From positions 1-64,000 of the forward strand of contig NZ_WAJS01000011.1 in assembly GCF_008831045.1 (NCBI RefSeq): DNA of 64,000 bases, read 5' to 3'. The number at the start of each line of letters is the position of its first letter. The first letter of the stretch is position 1. The stretch comes from Adlercreutzia muris. GTDB lineage: Bacteria; Actinomycetota; Coriobacteriia; Coriobacteriales; Eggerthellaceae. The position numbers and the translations under genes are program-made. Below the pieces are notes generated by a model. The model was not told the origin of the DNA and did not search any database. It worked only from the letters and a program-made list of their open reading frames with translations. Below are positions 4,309 through 64,000 of the stretch, one piece after another.

Positions 4309-4317
4309 GGCGGTCAT

Positions 4318-4401: not shown

Positions 4402-4431
4402 ATTATATACCCTTCTTGTCCCCGATGCCAA
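4402..4431 (-). promoter_or_regulatory. Sigma-A type promoter for the 1-4308 gene
   Basis: On the minus strand, TTGGCA (4426-4431, five of six matches to TTGACA) and a perfect TATAAT (4402-4407) are 18 bp apart. Transcription should start near 4395, giving a leader of about 87 nt. The site is an AT-rich patch in otherwise GC-rich DNA. The -35 box lies only 3 nt past the stem of the preceding hairpin. Confidence 0.82.
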
Positions 4432-4434
4432 GAT

Positions 4435-4461
4435 GCGCCCCCCGCCAGTGGCGAGGGGCGC
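4435..4461 (-). terminator. GC-rich hairpin, probable terminator of the giant gene
   Basis: An inverted repeat forms a 12-bp stem with one G-U wobble and a 3-nt loop on the minus-strand transcript. The following bases are ATCTTGG, so the U-tract is weak. Its position, 84 nt after the stop and just before the next promoter, fits a terminator that isolates the two genes, but termination is not certain. Confidence 0.6.
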
Positions 4462-4479
4462 TTGTCATCCCTTCTGACC

Positions 4480-4501
4480 GGGGCCCTCCGGAGAGGGCCC
4501 C
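4480..4501 (-). terminator. Perfect 9-bp hairpin with UNCG tetraloop after the giant gene
   Basis: A perfect 9-bp GC-rich stem (GGGGCCCTC/GAGGGCCCC) is closed by a C(UCCG)G loop on the transcript, a UNCG-type ultra-stable tetraloop. It lies 43 nt after the stop codon and has no U-tract. It may block 3' exonucleases or help termination together with the hairpin at 4435-4461. Confidence 0.55.
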
Positions 4502-4544
4502 TCCTTCCATCAGAGCCCTTAGGGACGTCTCTCTCGGTCTCTTC

Positions 4545-4676
4545 TTACTCCTCCTCCCCTTCCTCTTCCTCGTCTTCCTCCTTGCGGCGGCTGATGAGGA
4601 CGAGCAGCAGGGCCGCGGCGCCCAGCAGGGTGAGGCCGAACAGCCAGGGCATGAGCTCGTCGCCGGTCTGGGGCAG
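4545..4676 (-). other. LPQTG cell-wall sorting signal and acidic tail of giant protein
   Basis: The last 43 residues start with LPQTG (codons 4662-4676). About 20 hydrophobic residues rich in Leu and Ala follow, then RRK. This is the classic sortase signal: cleavage between Thr and Gly, membrane hold by the hydrophobic segment, basic stop-transfer. Unusually, RRK is followed by an 11-residue acidic tail (EEDEEEEGEEE) before the stop. Such tails normally end soon after the basic residues. Confidence 0.97.
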
Positions 4677-7600
4677 CTTCAGGTAGAACAGGTTCGTGCC
4701 CCACGGGGTGGTGACCACGACGGTGTTCCAGTCGTCATCGCTGCCGGTCATGCCAAGGTCCACGGAGCGATCCGTCTCGGGCGTCCAGTCGTAGGGCGCC
4801 AGCAGGTTGAACTTGTGGCCGTAGGCGTTGGGGGTGGTGCGCACCTCGGTGAAGGAGCCGAGCACCGCCATGGCCGGGGTGATGCCCACCTTGCCCGTGC
4901 CGAGCACCGAGCCGGCGGCCTCGCCCCAGTCGGAGTCGTTGTTATCGTCGCTGCCCACCTCGATGGGCACGAACTCCTTGCCGTCGGGCATGGTGGCACG
5001 CACCCGGTAGATATAGGGCGTGTTGGCGCCGTCGACCATGGGCAGCCCCTCGAAGCGGTAGGCGCCCTCGGCGTTGGTCTCCTGAGAGGCCACCTCGGTC
5101 CAGCCGTCGCCGCCCTCCACGGTCTGGCCCTTGATGGCAGCCAGGGCCGTGGGCTTGTAGGAGGCGCCGTTGAAGCCGACCGCCGCCGTATCTCCCAGGG
5201 TCTTGCGCTCCAGGTACACCGTCAGACCGGGCACCGGCTCGGCGGTCTCGTCCTGCAGACCGTCGGCCTCCGGATCGTCGAAGGCAATGCCGGCGATGGT
5301 GGCCAGGGCGTAGGGCACCAGGCCCGTGTCGTTGAAGTCGGAATCGACGCCCATGGAGATGACCCAGGTGGTGCCGTTCGGGCCGGCCAGGTAGGCTGCG
5401 CCGTTGCCGACCAGATCGGAGCGATCCGACGGGGAGGCCAGCACGATGAGGCCGCCGTGGGGATCGGCCGGATCGAGGAGCTTGGTGTCCTCGTTCAGGT
5501 CGGAGTCGGTCTCGTGGGAGCCCTTGTTCATATGGGTCACGCCGAAGCCGGCCGGCAGATCGTCCACGGTCACCTCGAAGCCGTAGAGCACGTAGGTTTC
5601 CTCGCCGTCCACCATGCGCTTGCCGGCCACGTCCAGGTCATCGAAGATCCAGCGGCCATCGGCGTCCGAGGTCACCGTCTGGCTGAAGGTCTCGTCCAGC
5701 TGCCAGCCGTCGGCGGAGTACCAGTAGCGCTTCAGGCTCACGGGCACGCCCGCGATCCGCCCGGTCTCACCGGCATCCTGGATGCCGTCGTAGTTGTCGT
5801 CGCGCCACACCACGCCGGCGATATGGGCCTGGGCGATGCGGAACAGGCCGTAGCCGTGGTGCAGCGAGCTGAACCAGTTGATGTCGGACCACATGTTGTC
5901 GCCCTCGAGCTCCATGCGGCGGGCCTGGTAGGCCTCGTACAGGTCGTGGTCGCCCGTGCCGTCGTAGACCGGCGCGTTGGCCGTGCCGTCGGCAGCGGTG
6001 GCGTCGGTGGTCTCCCGGCCGTCGGAGCCCAGGTACACCGGCTTGCCGCCGAGCATCTTCTGCTTGCCGAAGATGGCCTCGTGGTAGTCGGGGTGCGTCT
6101 CGTGCAGCTCGTCCAGGTCGGCCAGCAGGGCCTTCTCGATCCAGGCCAGCACCTCGTTCTTCAGGCTGTCGGTCACGGTAATGCGGGCCACCGGCCTATC
6201 GCCCTGGTAGAGCGTGGTGAGGAAGGCGGCCTCGGTGGCTGCGCGCACCGTGCAGTCGGCATGGGTGCAGCCGGCCTCGGTGCAGAAGCCGTCGCCGTCC
6301 TTCTCATGCAGGCACGCAGAGCAGGTGTCGCACAGGCCGTCGCCGTCGGTGTCGGCCACGGCGCGGTCGTCGTGGTTCGCCAGGCAGTCGCCGCACAGAT
6401 CGCAGCGGTTGTCCAGATCGCCGTCCACGTGCTCGCACTCGGTGCCAGCCGGAGCCGGGCAGCAGTCGCTGGCATGGTCGCAGCCCGGCTCGGTGCACAG
6501 GCCGCCATCCTTGACGTGGACGCACTCCTTGCAGGCATCGCAGAAGCCGTCGCCGTTGCCGTCCTCGTGATCGCAGTTCTCCGGATCGCGGTTGACCTGA
6601 GAATCGAAGGTGGCGTAGGCGCCCTGGGTCTTGGAGGATTCGGACTCCGTCGCATCGGCCAGGGTGGTCAGCACGATGAGGCCCTCGCTGGCGGCGTCGG
6701 CCGGGTCGATGGGCAGGGTGTAGTCGCCCTTGTGGCCGGCGGCGTCGGGGATGTTCGGGCGCAGGGAGCCGAACTCCTCATCGAAGTCGGAGTTGATGGT
6801 GTCATCCAGCTCGTCATCGACGTGCTGCAGGGTGGGCGCGTAGGCCTCGGGCTCGGGATAGCTCACCACTTCGGCCCTGTAGGCGAACAGCACCTTGAAC
6901 TCGGCGGTGTTCTCACCGGAGCGGTGGGTGCCGGTGCCGTAGGCCATGAACTCCCAGCGGCCGTTCTCGTCGGTGGTGGCGAAGCCGGAGCCGGGCACGT
7001 ACTTGAAGTACTGGTCGTTGCCGTCCTTGTCCTCGCTCACCCACTGCTCGCGCACCTCGTCGGCCGGGGCCACGGCCAGGGCCTCCTCCTCGGTCAGCGG
7101 CAGATAGGTGTGCTCGCCCAGGCCGTCCTTGGACAGATCGTGGACGCCCGTGAGCTCGGCCAGGTCGGCCTGGGAGAAGCTGTAGTCGCGGCGCCAGACG
7201 CCCTTCTCCCCTTCCGGCGTGGCCTCGCCGATCTTATCGATGCAGGCGTCGAAGGCCTCGCGGATGACCCGCCTGTTGTCGGGCCCCTCGGTGTAGCTGT
7301 TGAGGGAAGTGCCCTGGGTGGCCTCGAACACGTTGAGCTTGTTCAGGGCCGCGCGGTACACCGCCTCGCGGTCGGCAGCCGTGGCGTTATCCAGGTCGGC
7401 GCCGATGGCGCCGAGCCAGTCGATCATGGCCTGGGCCGCGGCCGCGGGATCGGCCACCGCGTCGTCCTCGTCCTCCACGTAGGCCGGGGCCATGGCCTCG
7501 ATGGCCTTGTACTCGTCCTTCGTGAGGCCGGAGTTCTTGTAGCTGCCGTCGCCAGCGGCGTTCTCCCAGTAGCCCATGCCGGCATCGTCGTACCAGTAGC

Positions 7601-10600
7601 GCACGAGGCGGATCACGGCGCCCTCGATGCCCGCCTCGCCCTCGGTCATGAGGCCGTCGGAGTTCTCGTCGTTCCACACGTCGCCGTCGATGAGCACCGG
7701 CAGGCGCTTGGTCAGGCCGGCGTCGAAGGCGCGCTTGTAGTACATGCGGTTCGCGAGGTCGTAGTCGTTCTCCATGTAGGTGATGGCATAGGCGCTGGCC
7801 AGCAGGCTGCCGTTCATATCGGCATCCTCGTCCACCTGCTCGGCCACCACGGCGTACACCTCGTTGGCCTTGTCGGCATCGTTCACGTTGTCGGTGAGCG
7901 ACGACTCGAAGGAGGTGAGGTCGGAGTTGTTGCCCGTGCCGGCACCGTCCACGTGGAAGCGGCTGGCCACGTACTCGCCAGAGTCGTCCACCACCTTGAT
8001 GGCGTAACCGGTCAGGTACGGGGTGGCCATGGTGAAGTTCGGGTCGGCATCGGCCAGGACCTGCATACGGTCGTCGTAGGCAGCCTTCAGCTCGGCGTCA
8101 GCCTGGATGAGCTTCATCTGCTCGCCGGACAGGGACTTGATGTCCTCGGCCGACAGCGACGCGATCATCTTCACCGACACCGGGCGGGCGTGCAGCACCT
8201 TCAGGTCGGAGGTGGACAGCGCCGTGCCGTTGGCGTTGGGCACACCGTAGGGCTGGTAAACCTTGGTCATGTCGGCCGGCTTGGAGGCGGTGACCACATC
8301 GCCGTCCACGAGCACGTAACCGGGCAGGTTGTTGAACTCGTAGATGCCCTCCGCGTTGGTGAGGGTCCACAGCTGGTGGGCCTCGATGACCACGCCGCCG
8401 CAGTCGTCGCACTTGCCGTCGCCCTTGCCGTCGGCGCCATCGGCATCGCGGTGGGCCGCCGCGGCGTCCACCACGGCCCCGCAGCCGGCGCAGGTGGCCG
8501 TATGGGTGTTATTCAGGTTGTCCTTGTAGGCGAGGCCCTTGCCCACATGGTCGCAGGCCGGGGTCGTGGCCAGGGAGGCCTTGCAGATATCGCAGACCTG
8601 GTCGGCGTCATCGTCCACGTGGGGCGCATCGTCGGCGAGCACCGTGTTGCAGCTGCCGCACGTCACATCATGGGTGCCGTCGCCGTTGTCGGTGGCCACC
8701 GCGCCGTTGTGCAGGCACGCACCGCAGGCGTCGCAGCAATCGTCGCCGTCGCCGTCGGAGCAAGCAACGTTGGCCTCGGTATAGGTGCAGGCCGGGTTAT
8801 CGCAGGTCACCGTATGGGTGCCATCGTTGTTGGCGGTCACGGTGCGGTTGTCGTGGGTGCAGCTCGGGTCGCCGGGGTCGGTCACCTGGGTGTTGCCGTC
8901 ACCCTCGCCGTCGGCCAGGGCCGCCGCACTCACGGGCACCGCCGCGGGCGCCACGCGCCGGGCCGCGGGCTCGCCGGCCTCTCCGCCGGCCTCGGGGTCG
9001 GTAGGCTCGCCCGGGTTCTCCGGGTCGGTAGGCTCGCCGCCCTCGCCCTCGTCGGGTTCGTCGGCGCCGTCCTGGTACTGGTAACCGCCGGCCAGGTTGG
9101 TGTTCTCCACCCACACGCCGGAGTCGCGCAGCACGCGGACATGGGCCTTGCGCAGGGCATCGTAGTCGTAGGTACGGCCGGAGCGCACCAGGTACACCTT
9201 GCCGTCGGCACCCACGACGATGTTGCCGCCCTTGCCGTCCACCAGGCGCAGGTCGCCGTCCTCGTTCTCGTAGAAGACGTTGCCGTCCTCGTCCTCCAGC
9301 AGCTGGTGGCCGCGGTCGTACTCGGGCACGAAGTAGTACTGGGTGAGGATGACGCGCAAGTTCTCCACGCCCTCCTCGGTTTTGTCGCTGTCCTCGGTGT
9401 CGAAGCGGTCGTCGGAGGTGTCGGAGTCGTTCACGCCGTCGTAGTCCTCGTCGTACCAGGCCTGGCCCACCAAGCTGGAGCGGTCCGGCGGCACGAAGCC
9501 GGCGTTCATGGAGGCCTGGTTCTGGCCCGCGGCGAAGTCGTAGCCGTTCTCGCCCGCGACCGTTTCCTTAACGGGGTTGCCGTCGGCGTCGTAGACCGGC
9601 TTGCCGTTCTCGTCGGTCTTCACGCGCTCCTCGGACCAGGGGAAGACGGCCTTCTGGGCCGCCAGGCTGGCATCGTCGGAGGCGCCGGCCAGCACGATGC
9701 GCCAGTCGGCGGCGTTCTTGGCGATCTCGCCCTCCACCGTGGTGCAGGTGCCCGCAGGCAGGGTGCAGGCGCCGTCGCTGTGGGCCCCATCGGCGGTCTG
9801 GATGTTCGGCTCGTCGAGGAACACCGGGTAGTTGTTGTTCTCGTAGTGCTTCCACACCTCGGCCAGGCCATCAGGGTTGCCGGCGTCCTTGTCCTCGGCG
9901 GTCACCATGGGCTGCACCCGGGAGTTCACGACATCGTGGGCCGTGGTCTGGGCCTCGAAGGTGGTCACGAGCAGCGAGCCCATGCCGTCGTCGGCCTTCA
10001 CACCGTTCACCTCCACGGTGTAGGACGCGAGGGTGTACTCGTACTTCTTCGCCGCGGCGTTCCACTGGCGGTAGGCCGTGGGCAGCTTGTCGAAGAGGTA
10101 GTAGCCGGTCACGGCCTTGCCGCCGAGCTTGCCCTCGGAGACGAGGGTCGGATGGGTGCCGGTCAGCACGGCCACCTTGCCGCCGCCCAGGTTCTTCGAG
10201 CCCGGGATGGTCTGAGTGAGGTTGGCGGTCTCGCCGGGCTTCAGGGTGTTCTTGCCCGGGGTGGTCACGTCGGCGGCCTTCACGTTGGTGTCGTTGCCGA
10301 AGTCGGCGTTCTGCACCCAGGTGCCGTCGGCGGCCAGCAGCCACTGCTTCAGGATGACCTGCTTGCTGTTGTAGCCGTACTCGATGAAGTCCTCGGTGAC
10401 CTCCTTGCCGTCCTTGGTGAGCGTCTTGCGCACCTCGGTGTTGTAGTTGTACAGGCCGTCGTAGTCGGCATCCTCCCAGACGAAGCCGTCGATGGCGTAG
10501 GTGGGCGGGATGATGATGCCGCCGTCGTTGTGGTCGCGGCTGGCGCCCATCATGAGGTCGTAGGCCACCAGGTCGCCCTTGCGCATCGGCTCGGCCACCA

Positions 10601-13600
10601 CGGGGTTGCCCTCGCCGTCGGTCACCACGTCGCCGTTCTCGTCGCGCTCGTAGTTGGGCGTCTGGTCGGCGTTGTGGGAGGCCGGGGCGTACACGATGTT
10701 GGAGCCGTGGGAGGTCAGGCCGTCGGGGGTCTGGCCGTCGGCGTTCACGGTCTCCAGCAGCACGATCATCTCGCTGCCATCGGTGTCCACCAGGTAGTTG
10801 TCCTCGGACAGGTCGGAGTCGTGACGGTAGTCCACGGGCGCCTCGGCGGTGCCGCGCACCTGGTACTTGGCCTTGAAGTCGGCCGCATCCGCCACGGAAT
10901 CCTCGGTGACGCGCACCTGGTAGCCGTAGACGACCCACTGGGTGGTGCCGCCCACGGTGCGCAGGCCCGCGGTCTCCAGGTTCTCGAAGCTGTAGGTGCC
11001 GTTGCGGTACAGGTCGTTGCCCACCAGCTCCTCGTTGAAATCGAGGGTGAGCGCGGTCTTGTCCGTATCCTCCTCCACGAGCACCTTGCCGGTCACGGCC
11101 TTGGCCTCGCTGGTGCCGTCGGGCGCCCAGGCCGTGGTGTCGAGCACCCAGTCGGTGCCGTTGAACCAGTAGCGCTCCAGGGCCACGGCGTAGCCGTTGA
11201 TCGGAGCCTCGTCGGTGCGGGCGCCGGTCTCCTCGTCCACGAAGGTGTCCTGGATGCCGTTGTTGTTGGCGTCGTTCCACAGGATGCCGCGGATGGACTG
11301 GCGCGTGGGATGGGTGGCGCCCACGTAACCGCCGGCCAGCGGGATGCTGTAGCGATCCCACACCTCGTGCTCGAGACCGCCCTCATCGGTCCAGCTGTCC
11401 ACGAGCACGCGCTCGGTGTCCACGGTCAGCCAGTCGTAGGCCGCCGTGCCGGCCGTGCCGGCCAGCAGCTGGGACAGGGGCACCCGCGCGTAGTCGGCCG
11501 GGTCGGCCAGCTTGGTCTTGCCCTCGCCGTCGCTCACGCCTTCGCTGGCCAGCACGATGCGGCCGCCGTTATCGTTGCCACCGAGGTTGCCCTGGGCGGT
11601 GCGGGTGCCGGCGATCACGGTGCCGTCCTCGGCCACAACCTCGGCCCGGTCGGTCACCACGCGGCCCGCGCCGCCGGTCAGGGGCGCTACGCCGGTGCGG
11701 TCGAGGTTCTCAGCATCGGAATCCACCGTGACGTCCTCGCCCACATGGTAGCGGGTGAGCAGCCAGTTCTCGCCGTCGGCCGCATCGGAGCCGCCGGCGC
11801 CGAGGCCGTCGAACTCCACCTGGTAGCCGGCGAGCGCGTAGGTGTCGCCTGCCAGGGCCACGGTGCGGTCGGCGGCGATCTTCAGGGCAGAGGCCTCGGC
11901 ACCGACGCCCACGATGGCGCTCGGCAGCTTGTCGAAGCCGTAGGTGCCCGCGTCCAGATCGGTCTTCACCGTCTTGCCGTCGCGGTCGTAGCCCACCGGG
12001 CCGGTGGTCACGGTGCGGACGCCGCTGTTGTTGGGGGTCAGAGTCTGCTGCCAGGAGGTGGTGCCGGTGTCGGCATCGGTCACCGACTCCCACTTCACCT
12101 CGGCACCGAAGCCGGTCACCTGGGCCCAGGTCTGGGCATTGCGGTCGTAGGCCCACTGGGTCAGGGCCACGGTGCGCCCGGGCAGGCCGGCCTCGTAGAC
12201 CGTCTTGCCGTTCTCGGCCCAATGGTCGCGAATGCCGTTGTAGGAGCGCTCGCGCTCGGCACGGTCGAGCAGCAGATCGCCGGACCAGGTGTCCTGATAG
12301 GAGTCGTCCCACATAATGCCGTTGATGGAGGCGGTCGGCACGGCGATGAGGCCGCCGTCGCCGCCCTGGGCCGACTGCACGTTCATATCGGTGTCGTAGG
12401 TGACGCCCTTGTAGGTCTTCTGGGTCTTGTCGTTGGTGGACGTGGAGTGCTTCTCGCGGGCGATGATGACCATGCCGTCGGCGCGGGTGGGGGTGCTGCC
12501 GTCGTCGGCCTTGTCGGCCACGCGGTTCACGAGCGTGAACTGGCCGCCGTCGATGTTGGTGCCGCCCATGTTGCGGAACAGGTCGGAGTCGGCCGTGTAG
12601 TCCTCGGCCGCTTCCACTCCGTCGTCGCCGTTGGCATGGGCGCGGGTCAGCGTGTAGCCGGCCGGCACCGATTCCACCTCCACGGTGTAGCCGCACAGGT
12701 AGTCGGTGTCGGTGCTCTCATCGGGCTTGCTGAAGCGCGTGGGCACCTCCTCGCTCTTGTAGGTGCCGAGCGGCAGATCCTGGATGATGGTGGTGCCGTC
12801 CACGTCGTAGACGGGCTTGCCGTTGGAGGTGGTGCAGGTGGTGGCCGGCACGTCCACGTGGGTCACGCCGTCGGCCGCCAGGGTATAGGTGCGCTTCCAG
12901 GTGCCGTCGGTCCCACCGCTCTTGTCGGCGGTGTCGAGGTACCACTGGATGATGCGGATGCGCACGCCGGCGATGCCTTTCTCTCCCTCGTCCTGGACGC
13001 CGTTGTAGTTGGCGTCGTCCCAGATGCGGCCGGTGATGGGCGCCGCGGGGGGCATGATGTAGCCGCCGTTGATGCGGGTCTCGTTCTTGCCGAAGGTCAG
13101 ATCGAAGGACACGTCGGTGGCGCCGGCGTCTCCCTCGTGGTTCTTGCCCGAGGCCGCCAGGGGGTACTGGGTACCGCTCACGCGGGCGCCGGCGGCGTCG
13201 GCCGTCGTCGAGCCGGCCAGCACCAGCATGGAGTCCAGGGTATGGATGTCGCCGTCGGAGCTGTACGCGTCGCTGCGCACGAGCGGGAAGGTGTCCAGGC
13301 CGAAGCGGTACTCGCGGGGCAGCCCGGCGTTCACGTTGGACTGGCCCTTGGAGTTCCACAGGTCGTGGTCGGCGTCATCCACGCTGGTATCGTGCGTGGT
13401 AGACATCTCGTACTTGCCCGGGGTGAACGACAGGTTGCCGCGGATGGCCACGGTGTAGCCGGCCAGGTACTCCTTGCCGTCCACGAACACGCGCACCGGC
13501 AGGTCGTCGAACTCGTAGTAGCCGTCGTTGGCCTTGCCGAAGTCGGCAGCGGCCTTGGTCGTGGTGGTGGCGAAGTAGAAGCCGGTCTGGTCGCGGTCGG

Positions 13601-16600
13601 TGTCGTAGGCGCGCACCGGGAACCAGTGGTTGTCGCCGTTGAAGCTGTCGGCGGTGTTCACCCGGGTGGGATCGTAGTACCACTGGCGCAGGTACATGGT
13701 GGTGCCCACGCGACCCTCCTCGGCCGCCTCCAGAGTCAGGTCCTCGCTCGGGTCGTCGGGGTCGGGGTAGGTGCCAGGCGTGCGGGAGTACCAGCCGTCC
13801 TTGTAGGCGTTGTCGCGCCACACGTAGCCGCCGATGGCGCGGTAGGCCGGGGCCACCTCGCCCACATCGCCGGCCTCCTCGGTGGCCACGGGGCGGGTCC
13901 ACTGGTAGGTAGCCGCGCCCGCAGTGTCCATGGCGCTTCCCGCCGGGATGGCGGCGAAGGCGGCCGGGATGCCCTGGGTGGTGTCGGCCTGGACGGTGCC
14001 CAGGATGACCTGGCCGTCGTTGGCGCGCAGGGTCTTGTCGGCGTAGCGCTCGATGACCGGGAAGCTGTGGTAGTAGGCCCGGGCCGGCTCGGCGGCGGCC
14101 AGGCCGATCTCGTCGGCATTAGCGGCCGGGCCGGTGGTGCCGTCGTCGGTGGCGTTGGAGTCCACCGTGAGGTCGGTGCCCTCGTTCACCGCGGTGATGT
14201 GCCACGGGTCGGCCAGCGTGCCGTCGGACTTCAGGTAGTTCTTCGCGGCGGCCAGCTCCACACGGTAGGCGGCCAGGAAGTACTCGTCGGTGCCGGTGGC
14301 GTCGTTGTAGACCACCACGGCCGTAGGCAGGTTGTCGAAGACGTACTCGCCGTCGGCCACGGGAACCTGCGTGCCGTCGGCGGCGGTCTTGGTCGCGGCG
14401 CCCTGGGCGTAGGTGCGCACGGCCACCACGGCGTCCTTGCCGCGGCCGTCGGCGCGATTCTCGCCGCCGGTCACCACGGGCACGCGCTCGAAGTGGCCCG
14501 GATCGGTGAGGTCGGCCGGATCCTTCACGAACTTCAGCTCGGTGGTCACCCAGTCGGAGCCGAACCCGATGTTCTGCACCCAGGCGCCCTGGGCCCCGGC
14601 GGGGGCGGCCTCGTCGGTGGAGGTGGTGCCGTCGGCGGCCACCCACTCCACGATGCCGGCGGCCTCGCCGGTGGCGATCTGATCGAAGATGGGGCTCGTC
14701 GCGGGCACGTAGTACCACTGGGTGGCCAGCACCACTTCGCCGGCCAGGCCCTTCTCGTCGGCATCGCGGACGCCATTGGGAGCCGTGTTGTCGTCGGCAT
14801 CGGTGTCGTTCCACACGATACCGGTGATCTGGGAGGTGGGCACGCGGAACAGGCCGGTGTTCACCGACGCGCGGGCGGCCACCTGATGGGCCGTATCGTA
14901 GTCCACCCCGCCCATGGAGGCGCGGTAGGGCGTGTTCGCGGGCACGGAGCCGTCGGCGAGGGTGGAGGCGTCGGCCGTCAGGATGAAGCCGGTGTCCTTG
15001 GCAAAGCCGCCGTCGGGCTGCTCGCCGGCCGCCGCAAACTGCGGGTAGGCCGTGACGATGGGCGTGTCGTAGCCGTCCACCTCGGCCGAGCGTCGTACGT
15101 CGCGCTTGGCGTCGGAGTCGGTGTCGGAGGAGCCCACGCCGCTGTGGTACACGGTGAGCACGTGGCCGGCCGGCACCTCGGGCACCGTCACGCGGTAGGA
15201 GGCCAGGGCCAGCACGTCGTCGGTGGCGGCCGGGTCACCGGCGGCCAAGGGGTTGCCCTCGGCGTCGAACTGCACGTAGGGCAGCAGCCCCTCGGTGGAG
15301 CCGGCCGCGCCGTCCTCGTCGTGGAAGCGGTAGGCGCCGTTGGCGTCGGTGTCCATGGCATAGAAGCCGGTGCGGCCCGTGACCGTACCCGTGACCTCGT
15401 CGACGACCTCCTCGCCGAAGGCGGGGTTCTTGATCCAGGCGCCCACTACGGCGTCGGCGTCGTCGCGCACCAGCTCGATGCCGTGGATGTCGTTCACGTC
15501 CACGTCCTCGTAGGTCTTGGCGGCCCGCAGCACCTGGCCCTTGTTGTTGGTCACGGCGGCGGCCTGGAAGCGCGACACCACCTTGCCGTCCACGGTGACG
15601 TTCACGAGCGAGCCGTCCAGGTAGAACCACTGGGCCAGGCGCACCTCGGTGTCGGCCAGGGCGGCATCGCCATCGGTGCCGATCTCCTGCACGCCGTCGA
15701 AGTCGGCGTCGTACCACAGGGTGCCGGCCACCTCGGTGGTGCCGAAGTAACCGTAGCCGCCGGAGAGCTTCTCCTCGCTGCGGCCCGTGGCCATGTCGAA
15801 GGACACCTTCACGCCGTCACGCACCTGGTCGATCTTGTAGTTGTCGTCCTGGGTGTAGGTGGTGGTGTTGCCGGCCAGCACGATCATGCCGTCCAGGGTG
15901 GAGTTCGAGGTGTTGTTGTGCAGGGCCACGTCGTCGTTGTCGAACATCTGCGGCGCCTGGCCGGTGAGGTTCTGCCAGCCGAGCGGGTAGTTGGCGTTGC
16001 CGTAGGTGTCGATGGAGGCCGCGCCGTCGGTGTAGGTCACCGTGCCGCCCACGTTCTCCAGCAGCTGGGTGCCGATGACCTGGGCCGTGGACTCGTGCTC
16101 GTCTTCGGCCAGGGCATCACCCCGCTCCTCGATGCGGGTCACGGGCACATTCAGGGTCTCGCTGGTGGCCACGGCGTCGCCACCGGCCACCTCCACGGTG
16201 TAGCCGGCCAGGTACTCGGTACCGTTCACGGCCACGTACACGGGCAGGTTGTCGAAGGAGTAGAAGCCGTCGTAGTGGCCCTCGTCGGTGCCGGGGGCAT
16301 CGGCGGCCACGGTGCGGGTGAAGCACTCCACCGTACCGGCGGCCGCAGCGGCCGCGGCGCGGAGACCGGCGGCCACGAAGGCGGCCAGGGCGCCATCGGC
16401 CCCGTCGCCGCCGGTCGGGGGCACCGGGGCGTCGACGTTGGTGAAGTCGGCCACCTGAACCCACTGGCCGCCCGTGCCGTTGCCGTCGGCGTCGACGGCG
16501 GTGCCGGGCACGAAGTACCACTGCTTCAGGATGACCTTCTTGCCCACCAGGCCGCGCTCGGTGTAGTCGGTGCCGCCCACGGTGAAGCGGTCGGACGCAC

Positions 16601-19600
16601 CGGCGACGTCGTAGATGCCGTTGTAGTTGGCATCGTGGAACAGATAGCCGGAGATATGGTGCTTCGGCACGTCCATGACGCCGGCGTCGTTAAAGGCGCG
16701 GTCGGCGCCCTTGGCGCGGTCGTAGCGCAGGGTGGCGCCGTCGCCGGCTGCGGCGGGCGCACGGCCGTAGCGGTCGGCGGTGTTCTGGTTCGGGTTGCCG
16801 GAGGCGGTGGCCACGGCCACGTTGGCCCCCTGGGAGGCCACGGTCACGGCCGCAGCCCCGCCGTTGGTGGGGTTGCCCTCGATGTCGGCCAGGGTGCCGT
16901 GGACGTAGCCGTCGGTCTCCTCGGTGTTCAGGAGCACCGTGTACTCGTCGGCGCCCATGACGTAGCCGTCGGAGTAGATGAGGTCGGAGTCCACCGTATA
17001 GTCGCTGCCCTCGTGGATGTTGGCGGCCAAGAGGCGGCGGGCCCGGAACTCCTCGTCGGTGACGCGCACCTTGTAGCCGTAGATGACGACCTCGTCCACG
17101 CCATCGCCGTTCACGTCGCGCACGTCCGAGCTCTTCAAGTTCTTGAACTCGTAGGTGCCGTCCACACCGGCCACGGTGGCAGTGTCTCCGTTGGCGTAGG
17201 GGGCGGCGGTGTAGCTGTAGGTGCCGTCGGCCTCGCGCGTCCAGCCCAGGGCCACGGCCGGCTTCATGGGCGAGGTCTTCGCCTGCACGGTGTCGTTGTA
17301 GTCGGCCGGGTAGGCGGCGGCCCACTGGTCGTCCCAGACAAAGCCGTTGTCGGAGCCCACCACGGTGTAGTAGCGCTCCAGGGACACCTGGATGCCGTTC
17401 ACGCCGGGCTCGGCGGCCACGGTGCCGTTCTCGTCGGTGTAGTCGCCCTGAAGGCCGTCGTTGTTCATGTCCTTCCACACGCGGCCCGTGATGGTCTGGT
17501 ACGGGGGCAGCACCTCGCCCACGTCGCCGCCGTGGTGCAGGGCGGTGCCGTCGGGCAGCTCCAGCATCCAGTCGTACTGGACCTGGTTGTCCCACATGTT
17601 GTTGCCCTGGTCCACGTCCTCGGTGGTGTTGTCGTTGCCCTTCTCGCCGTCGCCCACGAGGGTGGCCAGGATGATCTGGCCGTGGTTCTGGCGCTCCTTG
17701 GGCTCGCCGGAGGCGGTGTCCAGCTCGTCGTTCTGCTGGGACACGATGAAGCCGCCGGCCACGCCGATGTTGCCGGCCGCGCCGTCGCGGGTCTCCTCTA
17801 CCGGCCAGGCGTTCAAGTTGGCCACGTCGGAATCCAGCTTGGCCGAGGCCAGGTCGGCCTTGTCCAGCTGTTGGGTGGCGCGGTGGCGCGTGAGCAGCCA
17901 GATGTCGTCGGCGGTGCCGGTCACGGTGTCGCGGGCGGTCGTCACGTTCATAGACGGGATCTCCACGCGGTAGGCCGCCAGGTAGAACTCGTCGTAGGTG
18001 GCGTTCTGCACCACGGCCACGGTGGGCAGCTTGTCGAACAGGTACACGCCCCGCTCGATGGCGTCGCCGGCCGCGGTGGTCTTGGTGCCGTCGTGGGTGT
18101 TCACGGCCACGATGCCGTCGCCGCGGTACCAGGAATCGGTCATATAAGGTTTATGGACGGTGTTGCCGTTCTCGTCCTGCTCGGTGAGGGCCGTGTAGCG
18201 CTCCTCGCCGAACTGGGTGTTGCGGATCCACACGCCCTGGGCGATGGACGCCACGGGGTTGCCGTCGGCACCCTCGATGCCGTCGGTATGACCGAAGGAG
18301 GCGCGCACGAGGTCCTCGTGGTTGGCCACGAACTGCGCCCACTTGTCCTGGGGCACGTACATCCACTGGGACAGGCGCACTTCCTCGCCCTCGATGCCGG
18401 GCTCGGCGTCGGTGTCCACCACGGTGGTCTCCTTGCCGTCCACGGTCACGGTCTTGGTGGCCTGCAGGCCGTCGTAGTTGCGGTCGTCCCACACACGGCC
18501 GGAGATGTTGGCCTTCAGCAGTTCCACGAGGCCCGCATCGCCGCCGGCGAGCGGCTCGTCCACGCAGCGGGGCACGTCGTAGCGCTTGCCGTTGTAGAAC
18601 ACCTCGGCGCCGATGAAGGCGGCACCGGAAGCGGCATCCGCGTTGTTGGTCATCTGGTACTGGCCGGCGGCCGGCGTGTTGGCGGCCGCGTCATCGGTGA
18701 TCTCGGCGGCCACGATGACGTAGCCGTCGGTACGGGCCGGGCCCACGTTGCCGGTGCCGTCGTCCACGGTGACAGCCAGGTTCTGACCGGCGTTGGTCTC
18801 GCCGGGCACCTGCTCGAACAGCTCCACGACGTTGCCGTCCTGGCGCAGGGCGTCGGAATCGTTGGTAATGTTCAGGCCGGCGGCCAGGTTGGCGGCCGTG
18901 GCGGCCGCATCGGGGTTCTGGGCCTGGCTCGGGAAGGTGAGCGCGTAGTCGGGCTCAGTCTCGTCCAGGGACACCCGGTAGGCCGTCATGTAGATATGGT
19001 CGCGGGTGACCTGGGCCGCGGCCAGGGCCACCGGGTCGGCGTCGGTGTCCACCACGTCCAGAGTCACGCCCTCGCCCACGGCGGGCTCGGTCGGCTCCTC
19101 GGGCTCGCCGCCCTCGGTGCCCTCACCATCGGTGCCGTTGCCGTCGGCCTCGTCGCCCTCGGCCGCGGCCAGGGTCACCTCGCCCACGGGCAGGTTCACG
19201 TGCTCGCGGTTCGGGAAGTAGGGCTGGATGTCGGAGAGGGCCGTGGTGGCCGCATCGCCCTCGCCCTGGGTGAGCATGTCCACATAGACGTAGCTCGTCA
19301 GCTCCTCGAACAGGTAGTCGCCCGCGCTCTGGGCAGGATCGGCGGCGTAGGGGTTGAAGCCCGATACCGTGCCCTCGAACCAGCCGCTGGCATCCACGGC
19401 CACGCGCGGATCCAGGGTGGCGGGCTGCTGGGTCACGGTGCCGTCGTCGCCCTTCACGTCCACCAGGGGCAGATCGGCCACGTTGGTGCGGTAGCTGAAG
19501 GTCTTGGACTTGAACCAGATGCCGTCGTCGGAAGCGGTGTCGTCGAACTCGAAGCCCGCGGCCTTGAGGGCTACGGCCGTGTCGGTGCCGTCGGCCAGCG

Positions 19601-22600
19601 TATCGCCAGCGGGCACGAAGAACCACTGGGATAGCTGGAGGGTCTCCCCCGCCACCGGCTTGTCGCCCGTCTCCTTGGCGTTCACGTCCTTCTCGCTGTA
19701 GAAGCCGTCCACGTTCTTGTCCTGGAACACGGTGCCGGTGATCTTGCCGGTCTCATAGGCGCCGAAGCCGCCGTCGAGGTTGCGCTCGTCACGGCCGAGG
19801 TTCCAGTCGAAGGCCACCGTGGCGCCGGGATTGACGGCGTCGTCGGAGGTGCGGGTCGTCACCGTGGAGGCGGCCGGGCTGTTGGCCTCGGCCACGCCGG
19901 CCAGAATGATCTTGCCGTCCATGGTGTGCTTGGTGAAGGCGTTGCCCGCCTCGTCGGTGCCGTAGGTGGACTGCTCGGTGGCCTCGTTCCAGGCCAGGCG
20001 ATAGTTGCCGTTGAGATCGCCGTCGACGTTCCTGGTGGCGGAGACCGTCATGTTGGCGGCCTGGGAGTTCACCACGTCGTCGTCGCGGGTGCCGTCGGTG
20101 GGGCGCTGCTGCTTCAAGGTGGCCGGCAGGCCGGTCACGGCCTGGGCCTTCTGGCCGGGCTCCACCGAAGCGCCGTTGATGTTGCCGAGCACCTCCACGG
20201 TGTAGCCGGCCAGGTACTCGGTACCCAGCTCATGGCCCTTGTGGGCCTTCACGAAGCGGGTGGGCAGCTTCTCGAAGAGGTAGGAGCCCACGGCCGCGGC
20301 ATCCACGGTCTCGGTGGTGGTGCCGTCGCCGTTGTCCACCACGGTCTTGCCGTCAGAGGTGAGCAGCCAGATACCGCCCTCGGTGCTGTCGTAGGTGGAG
20401 CCGGGGATGGTGGTGAGCGTGGCACCGGCGGCGGTCACCGTGGCGCCGAACTCGGCCTGGGTGTAGTTGTCGTTGCCGAAGTCGGTGTTCTGGATCCATT
20501 GGCCAGTCGCGCCATCCTCGCTGGGCACGTAGTACCACTGCTTCAGGATAACGCGCTTGCCGGCCAGGCCCGGCTCGCCCTCGTCGCGAATGCCGTCGTA
20601 GTCGGTCGCGGCAGCGGCGGTGAAGGCGTCATCGGCATCGCGCCACAGCACGCCGCCGATCTTCTGGAACAGCGGCACGCGCAGGCCGCCGTCGTTGTGA
20701 ACGCGGGTGATGCCCCACGCCATGTCGTAGCGGCGAGTGGCGCTCGTCACGTCGGACACCTCGTTGGCCGGCTTGCCGGCCTCGGCCGCGGCCTCGTCCT
20801 CGCCGTTGTTCGGGTTCTTGGAGTTCGGCGCGAAGCGGCGGTTGGAAGCTGGCGAGTTGTCGTCGGCCACCTGGAGCAGCACGTCGTACTCGTCGGCGCC
20901 CATGAGGTAGCCGGTGTTGAACACCAGGTCGGAATCGTGGTCGTAGTCGTCGCCGGCAAATCCGGACACCTGCATCTTGGCCGTGCCGAAGAAGCGATCC
21001 CACCAGCGAGCGTCGGTGACGCGCACCTTGTAGGCGTAGATGACCTGCACATCCTCGGTGACGGTGGCGCCGTCCACCTCGTGGGTGAGGCGCGCCCACT
21101 CCTGGGTCTTCAGGCCGCCGAAGCGGTAGACGCCGTCGTCGCCGGTGGCCAGGGTGCGGGCGATGCCGTCGCCGTGATCGGCAGCGGCGCCCAGGCCGGC
21201 CGTCGGGTCGGCGTCGTAGGCCTTCCACTGGTCGGCAGAGGCCCAAGCGGACTTCGCCAGGGCATCGACGCCGGCGGGCAGGGCGTCGTCGCGCACCCAG
21301 TCGGTGGCGGCCACGGTGCCGTCGGCGGTCACGATGGCGTAGTAGCGCTCGAGGGTCACCTCGATGCCGGCGGCCAGGGTGTCCTTGCCGGTGCCGGGCT
21401 CGTCGTCCAGGTCGTCGGCGGTCAGCAGACCGTCGTTGTCGTCGTCGTACCAGATGCGACCCTCGATATCGTCGATGGGGGCCTGCACCTCGCCCACGTC
21501 GCCGCCGGCCACGCGGGTCACGCCGTTCTCGTCCACGGTCACCTTGCCGTCGGCCGTGGCCGGGGCCGTGCGGCTCCAGTCGTAGGCCACCAGGCGGTCG
21601 GTGTCCATGGCCTGGCCGGCGGGCACGGTGACCACGGACTTGGAACCCGAGGTGGCACCGCCGGTGATGAGGCTGCCGCCGTCGCGCGTGCCGGCCAGAA
21701 TGACCTGGCCGTCGTTAGCGCGCGCCTGCACGCCGGCCTCATCGTAGCTGCCGATGACCTTGATGCCGGCAATGCCGGTGTTGGTGATGTCGTCGGCATC
21801 GGAGTCGGCCTGGCGGTCGTCGCCCTGGAAGTGGCGGGTGAGCAGCCACTGGTTGTCAGTGCCGTCCTCGTTCTCGGTGTGCTCCACATCGGCGAGCTCC
21901 ACGCGATAGGCGGCCAGGTAGTACTGGTCGTCGTCGGTCACGTAGGCCGTCGGCAGGTTGGCGAAGTGATACAGACCGAGCTGCTCGGCATCCTTCACGA
22001 CCTCGCCGTTCTCGCCGGTGACTTCACGCACGTCGCCGGTGGTGGTGGCCAGCACGCCCGGAACCAGATCGGCCTCGGTCACCACGGTGCCGTCGCCGTT
22101 GGTGCCCAGCTCGTACAGGGTACCCTTGGCATCCACGCTGTGGCCGTTCACACGGTACACGTACTTGAGCGGCGTCATGGCGTTGCCGTCCAGGAGGATG
22201 GGGGTGAGCACCTCCACGTCCCCCGTGGCGGGGTTCACGTCGCCCGCCTTCACGAGGGCGGTGTTCCCGGCCTGGTAGGCGCCGTCGATATTGGAGGTGT
22301 AGCGGTCGCGGCCGAATTCCTTGTTCTGCACCCAGGCGTAGCGGACGGCCTTGTCGGCATCCACGACGGCACCCGCGGCGTCCACCGGCGCCCAGTACCA
22401 CTGGGTCACCAGCACCGTCTCGCCGGCGATGCCCACCTCGTCGGGATCCTGGATGCCGTTGTAGGTGTTGGGCGAGGCGGAGCCGTCGGTCGGGTCGATG
22501 TCGTTCCACACCCGGCCCGTGATGTCGGCCCGGGGCACGGCGTACAGGCCGGCGTCGCCGCCGCGCTGAGTACCCATGGGATCGGGCACGTCGTAGGCGA

Positions 22601-25600
22601 CCGAACCGGTGGCCCCGCTGCCGTAGGCCTGCTCGTACTGATGGCCGTCGCCGCGCAGGGCATGATCGCTCACGAGCACGTAGCCGTCGGTGCGCCAGGC
22701 GGCCAGCACGCCGTCGAAGAACTCCTCGCGCAGCTCGATCTCGTCGGCGGGGTTGCGGATGGCGTCGGAGTCCGCGTCCTCGCGGCCGTCGGTACCGGTG
22801 CCGGTGCCGTCGGTGGCGCCGGGATGATCGGCCGGCTTGGAGGTGGTGGTCAGGTTGCCGGCACCGTCCACGGTATCGGTCTCGATGTTCATGCCCACGT
22901 GGGTCTTGGTGAGCGAGAAGGACGGGGCGATCTCGGAGAGCACGAGGCGGTAGCTCACCAGGTAGAGCTTGTCGGTGTCCACCTTCTCGCTATTCTCGTC
23001 GGGACGGCCCGCGGCCTGCTTCTCGCCAGGCTGGTAGATGCCGGCGTTGGCACCGTCCTGGGCGTAGACGAAGCTCGGCAGACCGGAGAAGGCGTAGTCG
23101 CCGGCCCCATCGGTGACGGCGGTCATGGCACCGCCGCCGTTGAAGCCGTCCACGCGCACCCAGGCGCCCACCACGGCATCGGCGTTCGTGCCGTCGCCGC
23201 GCACGGGGCGCACCGTGGCGTTCGCGGGCACCACTTCGCCGGTGTCGGCCACGAAGTGGGCGGCGTCGCCCTCCCCTTCCATGGTGCCTTCCACGTAGTA
23301 CCACTGGGTCAGGGTCAGGCTCATGTCGGCCAGGCCGTGCTCGCCGTCGGCGGTCTCGAACAGGCCGTCGAAGTCGTCGTCCTGCCACACGGTGCCCTCC
23401 ACGGTGGTGGTGCCGAACAGGCCGAAGCCAGCGTTCAGGCTCACCTCGTCGCGGCCCACGGAGAAGTCGAAGTCCACGGGCACGTCCGTGTCGTCGGCGG
23501 CCCCGTCGTTCTTCCACAGGCCCGTGGTGGTCACACGGTACTGGCCCGCAGTGGCGTTGGCGTTCACGGCGGGGGTCAGCTCACCCTCGGCCGGGGCGGC
23601 CAGGATGATGCGGCCGTCCAGAGTGGCCTTGGTGAAGGGGGCGCTCACGCCGTCGGCCGCAGGGGCCTCGGCCTGGCAGGTGTACTCGTTCCAGCGCACC
23701 GGGTAGTTGCCGGCAGCGCAGACGTCGGGCACCAGAGCGCCCTCGGCGGCGGTCTCGGCGGAGACCGCCTGGGAGTTCACTCGGTCGGCGTCCCCGTCGA
23801 TGGTCCAGCTCTCCTGGCCGTTGGCATTCACCTGCAGGCGCGTGGCCGGCAGGCCGTTCATGGACTGGGCGGCGCCATCGTCGTTGCCGAGCACCTCCAC
23901 GGTGTAGCCGGCCAGGTACTCGCGGGCCGGCTGCTTCACGCCGTCCACCGTAGCGCGAACCGCGGTGTAGCGGGCCGGCAGGTGGTCGAACAGGTAGTCG
24001 CCGGCCGTATCGGTGGTCACCCACACGCCCTTGCGGGCGGCATCGTAGGTGGCACCGGCAATGGTGAACAGGGCGGAAGCGGCCGCGGAGGTAGTGGCCG
24101 TGGCACCAAACTCGGCGCGGGTGTAGTAGTCGTTGCCGAAGTTCTCGTTAAGCTGCCAGGTGCCCTTGGCATTCCCCTCGCCGGGCACGTAGTACCACTG
24201 CTTGAGGATGACCTTCTTGCCCTCGAAGCCGGGCTCGCGCACCAGGGTGGTCTCCGGCTTGCCGTCGGTGCCGAGCACCGGGTTGCCATCGCCGTCGAGC
24301 ACCGGCTCGGTGCGGTTCAGGGTGCCGTCGTAGTCGGTGTCGTTGAACACCACGCCGGCGATCTTGTTGGCCACGGGCGTGCGCAGGCCGCCGTCGGAAG
24401 AGGCGCGGTCGGCGCCCAGGCCCAAATCGTAGGTGAAGCGGGCGCCGTCGTCGGTGGACACGGCGTAGCCGGAGCCGTCCACCACACCGGCCAGGGCCCC
24501 GCCGTTGCGGTCGGTGACCGCCTCGGGCAGGGTGAGCGTGGCGGCGTCGCCGGCGGCCACGGCCTTCTCGTAGAGGGCCGCGGCGTTGCGGTCGGCGCTG
24601 TTCTGGTTGGCGTTGCCGGAGGCGGGCACGATGGCGTGGTTCGCCCGCGGCGACTCGGCGGTCACCACGTTCAGGAGCACGTCGTACTCGCCCGGGGCGT
24701 TCAGGTAGCCGTCGGTGTAGATAAGGTCGGAGTCCACGGTGCAGTCGTCGCCCATACGGTACTTCGCGGCGCCGATGGTGCGCTCCCAGAAGTCGGTGTC
24801 GATGAGGCGCACCCGGTAGCCGTAGATGGTCACCGAGGCGGGAATGACCGTGACCTGCACGCTCTCCTCGCCGGTATCGGGATCGGTGAAGGGAGTCTCC
24901 ACCTTCTGGGCCGGGTTGTAGCGGTGGCTCGGCAGGTCGGAGAACTCGTAGCGGCCGTCGGCGTCAGTGGTGGTGCCGCGGGTGCCGAGGCCCGTGGTCG
25001 GGTCGGCGTCGTAGGCATCCCACGCGGCCTGGTCGGCCCAGGTGAGGTCGCGCTCCCACGCGGCGCCGTCGGCCACGGCGAAGGAGCCGTCGGCCTGTTG
25101 CACGGCGGTAATGGCCCAGCGCTCCAGAGCCAGGGCGCGATCGGCCTCGCCGGGCTCGCCGGCAGCGCTGCCGTCGGCGGCCGGGCCGTCGTAGATGCCG
25201 TCGTTGTCGGTGTCGTTCCAGATAAGGCCGCTGATGGTCTGGCGCGGGGCCTGGGTCTCGCCCACATCGCCGGCCTCCACGGGAACCACGGTCTCGGTGG
25301 TCACGTTCGTGTCGGGGTCGGTCACCGTGGCGGTCTCGGGATCCATGATCCAGTCGTACACCTCGGCGCCCGTGCCCATGCCGGCCCCGGCGGGCAGCGC
25401 CACGAAGGCGTTGGCATTGGCGTGGGTGTACTCGCCCGCCTCGTTGGTGGTCGTATCCTGGGCGGCCCAGGCCAGGATGGTCTGGCCCTTGAAGCCGCGG
25501 GTGGTGCGGGTGGCGGCCGTGCCGTCCACGGCGGTGCCCTCGGAGGCCAGGCCGCAGGTGGCGGCGTCCAGGCGGCCGGCGATGACCATGCCGCCGGCGA

Positions 25601-55600: not shown

Positions 55601-58600
55601 CGAGGAAGGAGCCCTGGGACTTGTAGCCAATGGCCAAGTTGCCCGAGGTCTCGTCGAGGGAGCTGCCCCAGCAGGCAGAATGGCCCGCCTGGCCGTGGGC
55701 GTCATTGGAGCCGGCGGAGTAATTCGTGAAGCGGGTGGCCTGGGCATCGCCGGTCAGGTAGTCGGCCCCCAGTTTCTGGGGCATGAGGTACCAGGACGGG
55801 TAGGTGCCGTCGGCCAGCTTCTCGTCATAGCCGCTGCTGGCGGGGTCCTTCGCGCTCCAACTGGGGGTGACGGTCAGCTTGCCCGGCTGCGCGCCGCTCG
55901 CGCTGCCGGAGGTATCGGGACCGGAGGACACCACGAGGCGGGCGCGGCGGATGTCAGTGGGCGTGTCGTCGCCGGTGAGCACGTCCTCGCTGCCGTCCTC
56001 GTTCACGCGCACCAGACCGACGCAGATGACGGCCCCCTCGTCGATGGAGGCGCTCGCCTGCTTGTCAGTCACCTCGTCCACGGTGTAGCCGCCGGCCACG
56101 AGCAGGGCCGTGGCCTCTTCCACGGTCTTGCCCACGCACTCGGCGAACAGCTGGGCGCGCAGGTACTCCTCGGTGGGGCCGTCGGAGACGTACACCTTCA
56201 CGGCGCCGCGGTTCTCGCGGTCCTCGGAGTAGTCGCCGATGCGCTCCACCTTGAACACGAGGCCGGCGGCCACGACGTTGTTCTTCTCATGGACGACGTC
56301 ATTGGCCTCGTCCACGGTGTAGTGGTTGTCGGTGAGCAGCTGGATGGCCTCGGCCAGGGTCTTGCCGGTGTAGGCGCTCGCCAGCTCCTCCTTCTCCAGG
56401 TCGCCGGGGTGCTTGCCCTCGGAGATGGTCAGCTGCACGGTGCCGAGGTAGTCCTTGGCCGGCTGCGGCTTCACGGCCCACAGCAGGTCCTCGTCCGTGG
56501 GCACCTCCACGCGCTCCTCGCCGTCGGCGTACACGTAATTCGGGTCGAAGCGCGGGTCGGCGTACACGCCGGCCACGGCCGGCTGGGTCCAGGGGCCGCG
56601 GGTCAGGGCCAGGTCGATGAGCTGGCCGGCGGGCACCGCGTTGCTGTACTCCTTCACCGTGTCGGTCTCGACGAAGTAGCCCAAATCCAGCAGCTTCGCC
56701 CGGGCCTCGCTCTCGGTGAGGTAGGTGGTGGTGACGTTGCCGTCCTCATCGGTGGAGGTGGTGGGACGCAGGTCCTTGAAGGCATCGGGGCCCTTGGAGA
56801 TGACCACGGCCACCTGGCCGAGGGTGTCCACCTTGGTGGGATCGTCGGCGTTGTACACCGGCTCGGAGAGCTTCCGGGCCGAGATGATGAGCCCGGCGGC
56901 CACGGTATCGCTGTACTCGTAGGTCACCTGGGCATCGGGAATCTCGAAGTTCAGGGGCGCCAGGGCCGCCTTCGCATCGGCCAGGGTCTTGCCCACCTGG
57001 TCGGCGGCCTCGTCCACCTCCTCGGCCGGGCCGGCGGACACGTACACGGTCACGACGGCCTTGGCGGTGTTGGTGGCCTCGCTCTTCAGCTCGGCGCGGA
57101 TGACGTTGCCCTCAGCGATGCCGGGGCTCAGCCAATAGAGCTGCTCGCCGGCGGCGATGGCGCCGGGCTTGTCGGTCACGCGCTCGTAGGAGGTGGTGCC
57201 GTCCTCGGCGGTCACGAGACGGTACAGGTCGATGGCGTTGATATCCTCGGACCCATCGAGGGGGTGATAGGTGTCGTTACTGTTCTCGAAGCGCAGCTCG
57301 ATGGTGTAGTCCGAATCGCGCAGCAGCCACTTGGCGGTCTTCTTCTCCGCCTCGGGAGCCTTGTCGAAGTCGCCGCCGGAATGCCAGTAGGTGAGCACCT
57401 TCTTGGAGGCGTCGTCGCGGTCGGCGTTCTCCTCCACGACCACTTTGCCGTAGGTGCCGTCGTCGTTGCGCACGAACAGCTGCTCGCCGGGGGTGTCCCC
57501 CGCCCCGTTCTGGGTGGCCAGCTCGGAGCCGCCGGGCACGACGAAGTACCCATCGTGCACGAGGGCCCCGTCGTAGGTGAAGAAGGCCACGCCCTCGGCG
57601 GGAATGGGGGTCGCGTCGGCGGCCATGGCATCGGTGCGGTAGCCGAGGGTGTCCGCGGCACCGTCGGCGCCGGGCACCGTCACCACGGTCACCTTCTGAT
57701 AGGCGCCCTTCTCGTCGCGCACATAGGCCTGGGTGGCGCCGCCCACGAGGGCGGCCGGGTCGTCTACGGCCACATAGCCGTCGTGGACTGCCTTGGCATC
57801 GTAGCGGTAGAAGGCCACGCCGTCGGCGCTCGGGTCGGGATCGATCTCGAAGAGCGTGTCCACGATCTTCTCGAAGAGGCTCTTGTTCTCGTTCTCGTCG
57901 TTCTTGTCCTCCACAGCCTCGCCGGAATCCACGTCAGCATAGGCCGAGCGGCTCACGGCATCGAAGTACATCTTGGACACGAAGATGAGGGAGCGGTCGA
58001 TGCGGGTGAGGGTGTAGTTGTCCGCCGTGCCGTTGAGCACCTTATCGCCGTTGAAGCCGTAGTTGGCCTTGTTGCCGTCGGCGGTGAGGGCGCCGCTCGC
58101 GGCGCCGAAGGCCGGCAGGTCCAGGGGCGCCTCGCGGAAAGAGTCTAAATGATTATATGTTGCAATGTTTATAGTGCGCTGGGTCTCGAAGTTGCTGTCG
58201 GTGTAGCCCTGGATGAAGACGTTCTGGTCGTCGACAGTCTTGCCGGCCATATCCTCGGCCATATCCTTCCAGGAGTACAGCTGGAACATGGTGGGCACCT
58301 CGATGCCCATGTCGTAGACCTGCTGCTCGGTGAGCAGGAAGCTGCCGTTGGCCTGGAGCGGGATGCGCACGCGGCCGTCCACCACGTCGAAGCCGTGGTC
58401 CCGCAGGGTGGCCTCGCTCACGGCCGCGGAACTGTAGGACAGAGCGCCGCGGGCCTGGAGCGAGCGGTTGGCGGTGCTGGTGCCCGTGGCGTACTCCAGC
58501 TCGAAGCCGGCCAGGCGCTTCTTGCCGGCCACCTCGGTGTAATAGGGCCACAGCACCACCTTGGTGGTGCTCGTCTGGGCCACCTTGCGACTGATCTGGT

Positions 58601-64000: not shown

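Follow-up and report, generated by a model that had tools for sequence, protein, structure and literature searches.

How large is the gene whose minus-strand frame dominates this stretch of DNA, is the frame real, and what would a cell do with its product? The stretch analysed, hereafter the window, comprises bases 1–64000 of an 88,406-bp contig (C11) in a 2.77-Mb draft genome of 94 contigs. In the ORF reading of the window, a minus-strand frame runs without stops from 4548 to 63998 (19,817 codons) and terminates at a TAA codon at 4545–4547 on the same strand.

Extent and integrity of the giant gene

The original prediction held that the window contains a single gene of more than 59 kb that encodes a wall-anchored protein of at least 19,817 residues, that the gene is real rather than a chance frame, and that it runs past the right edge. 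All three points stand. The frame closes at position 78623 of the same contig, which places the whole gene within an open frame (4545–78623) of 24,692 codons that contains zero N. The uninterrupted frame, its terminal LPQTG and a PF00746 match above cut-off agree with the predicted wall-anchored product. A dinucleotide model predicts about 531 stops in 24,692 codons (log10 P of no stop, −233); none is present, which rules out a chance frame. The other two sense frames contain 663 and 205 stops.

Further support for a real gene comes from a syntenic locus and from orthologues that are 53–71% identical over the whole length. End-to-end identity is 70.9% for A. caecimuris B7, 56.0% for A. mucosicola DSM 19490, and 53.2% for A. 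faecimuris JBNU-10; these orthologues sit in independent assemblies, one of them (A. caecimuris B7) on a 2.95-Mb contig. Against A. caecimuris B7, the third codon position is the most variable and pN/pS is below 1 in all 25 segments compared. The ratio is below 1 in 24/25 segments and above 1 in one against A. mucosicola, and below 1 in 19/25 and at or above 1 in six against A. faecimuris. We do not accept the values near or above 1 in the distant pairs as positive selection, since the gene prefers C/G-ending codons so strongly that synonymous change is compressed and dN/dS becomes a weak test of selection in it. The order PPDK-mtnA-parA-hypothetical-giant, in which the neighbours lie upstream, recurs in 4 of the 10 named loci, all from Adlercreutzia; the PPDK and mtnA-like labels are ones we presume from the sequences of these genes, without a family search. 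The upstream gene set had no match in the other six named loci, three of which begin near the giant gene, so that this result is no proof of absence.

The draft state of the genome (94 contigs) and the presence of super-repeats of about 1,250 residues inside the gene raise the suspicion that the assembly strung repeats together or collapsed them and so produced a spurious giant gene. We consider such an artefact exceedingly improbable. The longest exact direct repeat in the gene is 40 bp, self-matches at the DNA level number only four, and TRF reports no long array in the window. Moreover, orthologues of similar length and order occur on the 2.95-Mb contig of A. caecimuris B7 and in a 2.26-Mb genome assembled as one contig, and a Sanger-finished relative has been reported to carry 74-kb genes (PMC3778203). 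Misassembly and internal stops, named in advance as the results that would count against the gene, were looked for in the assemblies and neither was found. Orthologue identity, the repeat check, synteny and frame statistics together were the grounds for rejecting an assembly artefact, a chance frame and contamination. The giant gene is real and complete, a single intact gene of about 74 kb that encodes a protein of about 24,600 residues.

Architecture of the encoded protein

Read from residue 54 of the frame, the protein comprises 24,639 amino acids with a mass of 2,656 kDa (~2.66 MDa) and a pI of 4.37. Its composition is acidic and poor in Lys, Arg and Cys (Asp 9.6%, Thr 9.2%, Ser 5.1%, Cys 0.43%). 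The C-terminus reads LPQTGDELMPWLFG...ISRRK, followed by an acidic tail, and scores 28.4 bits against PF00746 (cut-off 20) and 23.1 against the NCBIfam model LPXTG_anchor (cut-off 15.9). Near the other end, a hydropathy scan locates a hydrophobic signal/TM segment at residues 239–265, which is followed by SIAEAR, is kept among orthologues, and is preceded by an atypically long N-terminal part. This preceding part (residues 54–238; contig 77910–78464) is unusually long and Ala/Glu-rich, and its length varies between orthologues. The strong TM-like segments in the simple scan are the signal segment and a C-terminal one (24,660); three further weak peaks are absent from the orthologues compared. 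An N-terminal signal/TM segment together with a C-terminal TM segment was present in 5/5 fetched orthologue frames that are whole at both ends (G002, G005, G057 and two of G185). The genome contains three sortase-like matches, two of them above cut-off. For a comparison with serine-rich repeat proteins, which use an accessory SecA2 system, the genome has one SecA_DEAD match above cut-off with a second below it, and the Ser content of the giant protein is only 5.1%. With its sorting signal, its signal segment and a sortase in the genome, the giant protein bears the sequence marks expected of an LPXTG sortase-anchored wall protein.

Table 1 Features of the giant gene and its flanks (window positions unless the contig is named; residues count from the first codon of the open frame)
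Feature	Position	Strand	Basis or remark
C-terminal 19,817 codons and stop of the giant gene	4545..64000	-	Continues on contig to 78623; likely start codon at contig 78464, beyond the window
C-terminal sorting signal: LPQTG (4662–4676), hydrophobic segment, RRK, acidic tail	4548..4676	-	PF00746 above cut-off; coordinates counted from translated C-terminus
SdrD_B-like stalk, residues about 15,763–24,530	5034..31337	-	25 domain-start motifs, diverged super-repeats of ~1,250 residues; PF17210
Second Cys-rich CxxC segment, residues about 24,016–24,135	6219..6578	-	Read from translation; no family match
Cys-rich CxxC segment, residues about 23,250–23,412	8388..8876	-	Read from translation; no family match
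Second PASTA domain, residues about 15,383–15,442	32298..32477	-	PF03793 35.1 bits, above cut-off
PASTA-like repeats, residues about 7,167–7,338	56610..57125	-	PF03793 44 bits, above cut-off; partial match to NCBIfam PASTA kinase model
Low-GC upstream region with conserved promoter/inverted-repeat block	contig 78464–78860 (L004:18465–18860)		Common to five Adlercreutzia species
Two strong GC-rich hairpins right after the stop codon, without a T run	4425..4544	-	RNA fold −68.9 kcal/mol, z −4.66, 0/200 shuffles as stable
Promoter-like site of next downstream gene, TTGGCA-18-TATAAT	4402..4431	-	11/12 consensus matches; 0.1 expected in shuffles

The statement that coherent domains are encoded throughout is only partly right as judged by family searches; where these find nothing in the first 6,500 residues, it is conservation among orthologues that shows coherence. 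Pfam matches lie almost entirely in residues 7,200–7,600 and 14,500–24,692, with nothing in residues 1–6,500 and no family over most of residues 1–14,000. Searches with phmmer that covered the entire frame matched no PDB sequence at E 0.01, and a Pfam search of the first 9,512 residues of the A. faecimuris orthologue, in ten pieces, returned only PASTA and one sub-threshold inhibitor match.

SdrD_B-like domains extend from about residue 14,500 to 24,530. PF17210 exceeded its cut-off of 29.7 bits in 2/30 chunks of the protein (82.1 bits in residues 23,868–24,692 and 52.3 bits in 13,992–14,981) and matched others more weakly. Counting by motif placed 25 SdrD_B-like domain starts between residues 15,763 and 24,443, and self-comparison of the super-repeats revealed 25–55% identity. 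A structural model of the stalk, built with six internal repeats, reached a pLDDT of 38.6 and gave no usable fold. Both CxxC segments lie near the wall-proximal end of a protein that is otherwise poor in Cys.

For the N-terminal region, a model was built on the stretch of the A. caecimuris orthologue that is equivalent to residues about 1,003–2,001 (pLDDT 71.5). The model contains an Ig-like domain that lies near MSCRAMM and pilin domains at borderline Z scores of 8–9. Comparison of this domain with ClfB, FnBPA, and SdrG gave Z scores of 7.6–8.8, and pilins and FXIIIa were equally close. A Z score near 8 may reflect merely the common Ig arrangement, and we take the matches to integrin, FXIIIa and arrestin folds as generic Ig-like similarity.

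Several known surface proteins share parts of this architecture. Staphylococcal SdrD and the MSCRAMMs resemble the giant protein in their LPXTG anchor, SdrD_B-like stalk repeats, and the Ig-like likeness of one N-terminal region. However, the giant protein is about 18 times longer than SdrD (model length 1,379) and scores 20.5 against the NCBIfam SdrD model, the cut-off of which is 2,500; the N2/N3 ligand-binding domain of MSCRAMMs was not found in it by sequence. The giant adhesin of Mobiluncus mulieris (7,651 amino acids), as described in the available part of the source (PMC10619420), is likewise a surface protein with a long chain of Ig-like domains, but it has one third the length, and every one of its domains has an ester, isopeptide, disulfide or thioester cross-link. 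Family-level searches detected no cross-linking families of the Mobiluncus type in the giant protein. Giant1-5 of Apilactobacillus kunkeei are also giant secreted surface proteins that occupy several percent of the genome; according to the portion of the text available (PMC12863079), they differ in their size (3,000–8,000 amino acids), beta-solenoid tip, helical repeats and DUF5776 C-terminus, and LPXTG goes unmentioned there. Lengths comparable to or greater than that of the giant protein are described for Omnitrophota ORFs, one of 39,678 amino acids, for which adhesion or predation has been proposed (PMC10066038). These ORFs belong to another phylum, and the available part of that account describes them as poorly conserved, with numerous predicted TM helices and sparse domain annotation, and does not report sortase anchoring.

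Start, transcription unit and codon usage

Following the frame to the right, as had been proposed for finding the start and signal peptide, located both the signal/TM segment at residues 239–265 and a likely start at residue 54 (contig 78464). Evidence for this start comes from the A. caecimuris and A. mucosicola N-termini and from five aligned upstream regions, in which an invariant ribosome-binding sequence, GAGAGAACGAG, precedes it. A TTTACT-16-GATAAT block, strongly conserved and with a short inverted repeat after it, is located about 170 bases further upstream. The block is preceded by about 250 bases of 24–29% GC in a locus where the window averages 67% GC. Start, ribosome-binding sequence, and promoter block are kept in five Adlercreutzia species; in a scan of 19 loci, only five, all from Adlercreutzia, showed the block ahead of the giant gene. 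Our promoter call is based on this conservation, because consensus scanning is weak evidence by itself: the upstream scan found 2 sites where shuffling predicts 1.9.

The hairpins that follow the stop codon (Table 1) likely mark the transcript end, and the promoter-like site of the next gene suggests that the giant gene forms a transcription unit by itself. From these two features together, the gene is likely transcribed as a monocistronic message of about 74 kb. The next gene downstream (window 1–4317, minus strand) encodes a large secreted protein of at least 1,439 amino acids with the signal-like N-terminus MTAMKQQHRFLRSALAAVLAWGLMVPAGAAYA, and runs off the contig start.

Codon usage sets the giant gene apart from ordinary genes. 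Its GC3 is 0.938 compared with 0.848 for 211 background genes, and its codon score of 0.838, with weights from the ribosomal region, lies above all 211 (mean 0.645, sd 0.092); these comparisons are approximate in that the background genes and 13 ribosomal-region ORFs were called by a simple script. GCG, GGG, CGG, TCG, and ACG are rarer in the giant gene, while GCC, GGC, CGC, TCC, and ACC are commoner. The shift is not mere GC drift, because G-ending codons fall while their C-ending synonyms rise. Such a preference is indirect evidence, in keeping with translational selection for a product that is costly or made in quantity. We consider the giant protein probably expressed.

Only 9 of the 24,692 sense codons are TTA, CTA, or TCA, so that long antisense frames stay open (up to 5,096 codons in this gene and 14,254 in A. 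caecimuris). We reject these frames as genes and regard them as a by-product of that near-absence. A gene caller could take them for genes. Homopolymer runs of at least six bases are also scarce in the giant gene, with 1 seen compared with 23.3 expected from synonymous shuffles. We do not claim this as selection against frameshifts, since ordinary genes show avoidance too (45 seen compared with 165 expected) and the ratios of orthologues range from 0 to 0.78.

Family, loss and proposed role of the giant protein

The belief that no coriobacterial example had been described proved mistaken. Two genes with an LPXTG motif, 74,766 and 74,247 nt long, have been on record in A. equolifaciens DSM 19450T since 2013 (Toh et al. 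2013, PMC3778203), and for subsp. celatus the available part of a later source lists shorter homologues, 37,689 and 61,890 bp in length (PMC8142583). Our literature search recognised no further work on these Adlercreutzia giant proteins. The A. equolifaciens giants share with the window gene the genus, a single frame of about 74 kb, a C-terminal LPXTG and an acidic composition poor in Lys, Arg and Cys; they come from a different species, and the 2013 report describes neither their domains nor their start, promoter or distribution. A. equolifaciens DFI.6.87 contains an orthologue of the window gene (24,860 codons) together with a 20,475-codon frame, and through this strain we infer that the window gene is orthologous to the AEQU_0093/AEQU_1251 type. 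The window gene is a member of a giant family known since 2013, which is more widespread than those reports indicate and includes some larger members.

A profile of the N-terminal region matched 19 of 138 Eggerthellaceae genomes, in 6 of 48 genera. Sixteen frames reach 20,000 codons or more; they occur in 12 of the 138 genomes and in four genera, and all lack internal stops; a second class of related frames, about 8,000–13,400 codons long, accompanies them. The largest frame (34,927 codons, C-terminus LPQTS) belongs to Slackia sp. ZJ119, about 9% of whose genome is taken up by three related frames, and a 30,639-codon frame lies in the one-contig 2.26-Mb genome of the same genus. The window gene has a colinear, LPXTG-anchored paralogue of 12,636 codons in its own genome (G000:C2:115814–153724; L006–L008), which is related to it over most of its length; the two account for about 4% of that genome. 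Judged by these frames, the giant gene is unexceptional within its own family.

In Slackia sp. ZJ119 (L073:10143; G184:C39), a 13-G tract lies between the signal segment, which is upstream and in another frame, and the 34,927-codon frame. The tract is the only homopolymer of at least eight bases in that 105-kb frame, and is a candidate for either phase variation or sequencing error. It is tempting to speculate, although we hold the idea only tentatively, that the Eggerthellaceae (Adlercreutzia, Parvibacter and the Slackia group) maintain an old lineage of sortase-anchored fibres at least as long as the cell, that these are perhaps the largest known sortase substrates, and that at least one of them is switched by slippage at the 13-G tract.

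At least one relative has lost most of the gene. The complete genome of a congener (G001; 2.91 Mb in one contig) has parA, which is followed at the syntenic locus by an open remnant of 4,094 codons (G001:C1:1348398–1360679; L109/L110) that matches residues about 20,993–24,681 at 35–73% identity and contains no stops. A terminator-like hairpin precedes the remnant, which has neither promoter block nor signal segment; about 21,000 codons and the promoter have been lost in this sister species. Because G001 keeps only this promoterless remnant, the giant gene is dispensable. Three draft Adlercreutzia genomes (G003, G004, and G006) yielded no giant-class frame. These findings raise the alternative that the window gene, although intact, is largely silent or decaying and has been retained by chance, which we regard as very unlikely given the conserved promoter block, 24,692 codons without a stop, the third-position excess in 25/25 segments and a codon preference stronger than that of ordinary genes.

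The giant protein is probably a secreted, sortase-anchored, Ig-like fibrillar surface adhesin; the length of the fibre and its adhesive role are the parts of this reading that we infer. The first steps of the corresponding model draw direct support from the sequence. The gene has its own conserved promoter block, ribosome-binding sequence and start, and the product runs from an unusually long N-terminal part through the signal/TM segment and about 24,400 mostly beta-type extracellular residues to LPQTG. The chain would then be exported through the ordinary Sec channel and its C-terminus linked to the wall by sortase. The SdrD_B-like repeats may form a wall-proximal stalk, from which the N-terminal two-thirds would project outward as an Ig-like fibre of roughly 0.8 micrometres (estimated from about 195 domains of 4 nm each), perhaps as long as the cell. 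Some way out from the wall, such a fibre could bind mucus or other cells.

The very high acidic content and the length of the protein would also suit a dense surface coat that shields the cell from phage, bile or immune factors rather than binding a ligand. Strong use of preferred codons would fit an abundant product of this kind, and a Pfam search for a defined ligand-binding domain in the protein found none. Against this, the single LPXTG anchor and the SdrD_B/MSCRAMM-like parts fit the stalk of an adhesin, and conservation falls in discrete regions, beyond composition alone. We consider a coat without an adhesive function unlikely, although shield and adhesin are compatible with each other.

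The belief that no coriobacterial example is on record is corrected, and in place of a single oddity there is a family whose start, promoter, locus and range of lengths are defined and for which a natural deletion mutant exists. Three matters are now testable: how a 2.7-MDa chain is exported through one Sec channel, what role a wall fibre that matches the cell in length has in the gut, and why some Adlercreutzia keep giant genes while others lose them.
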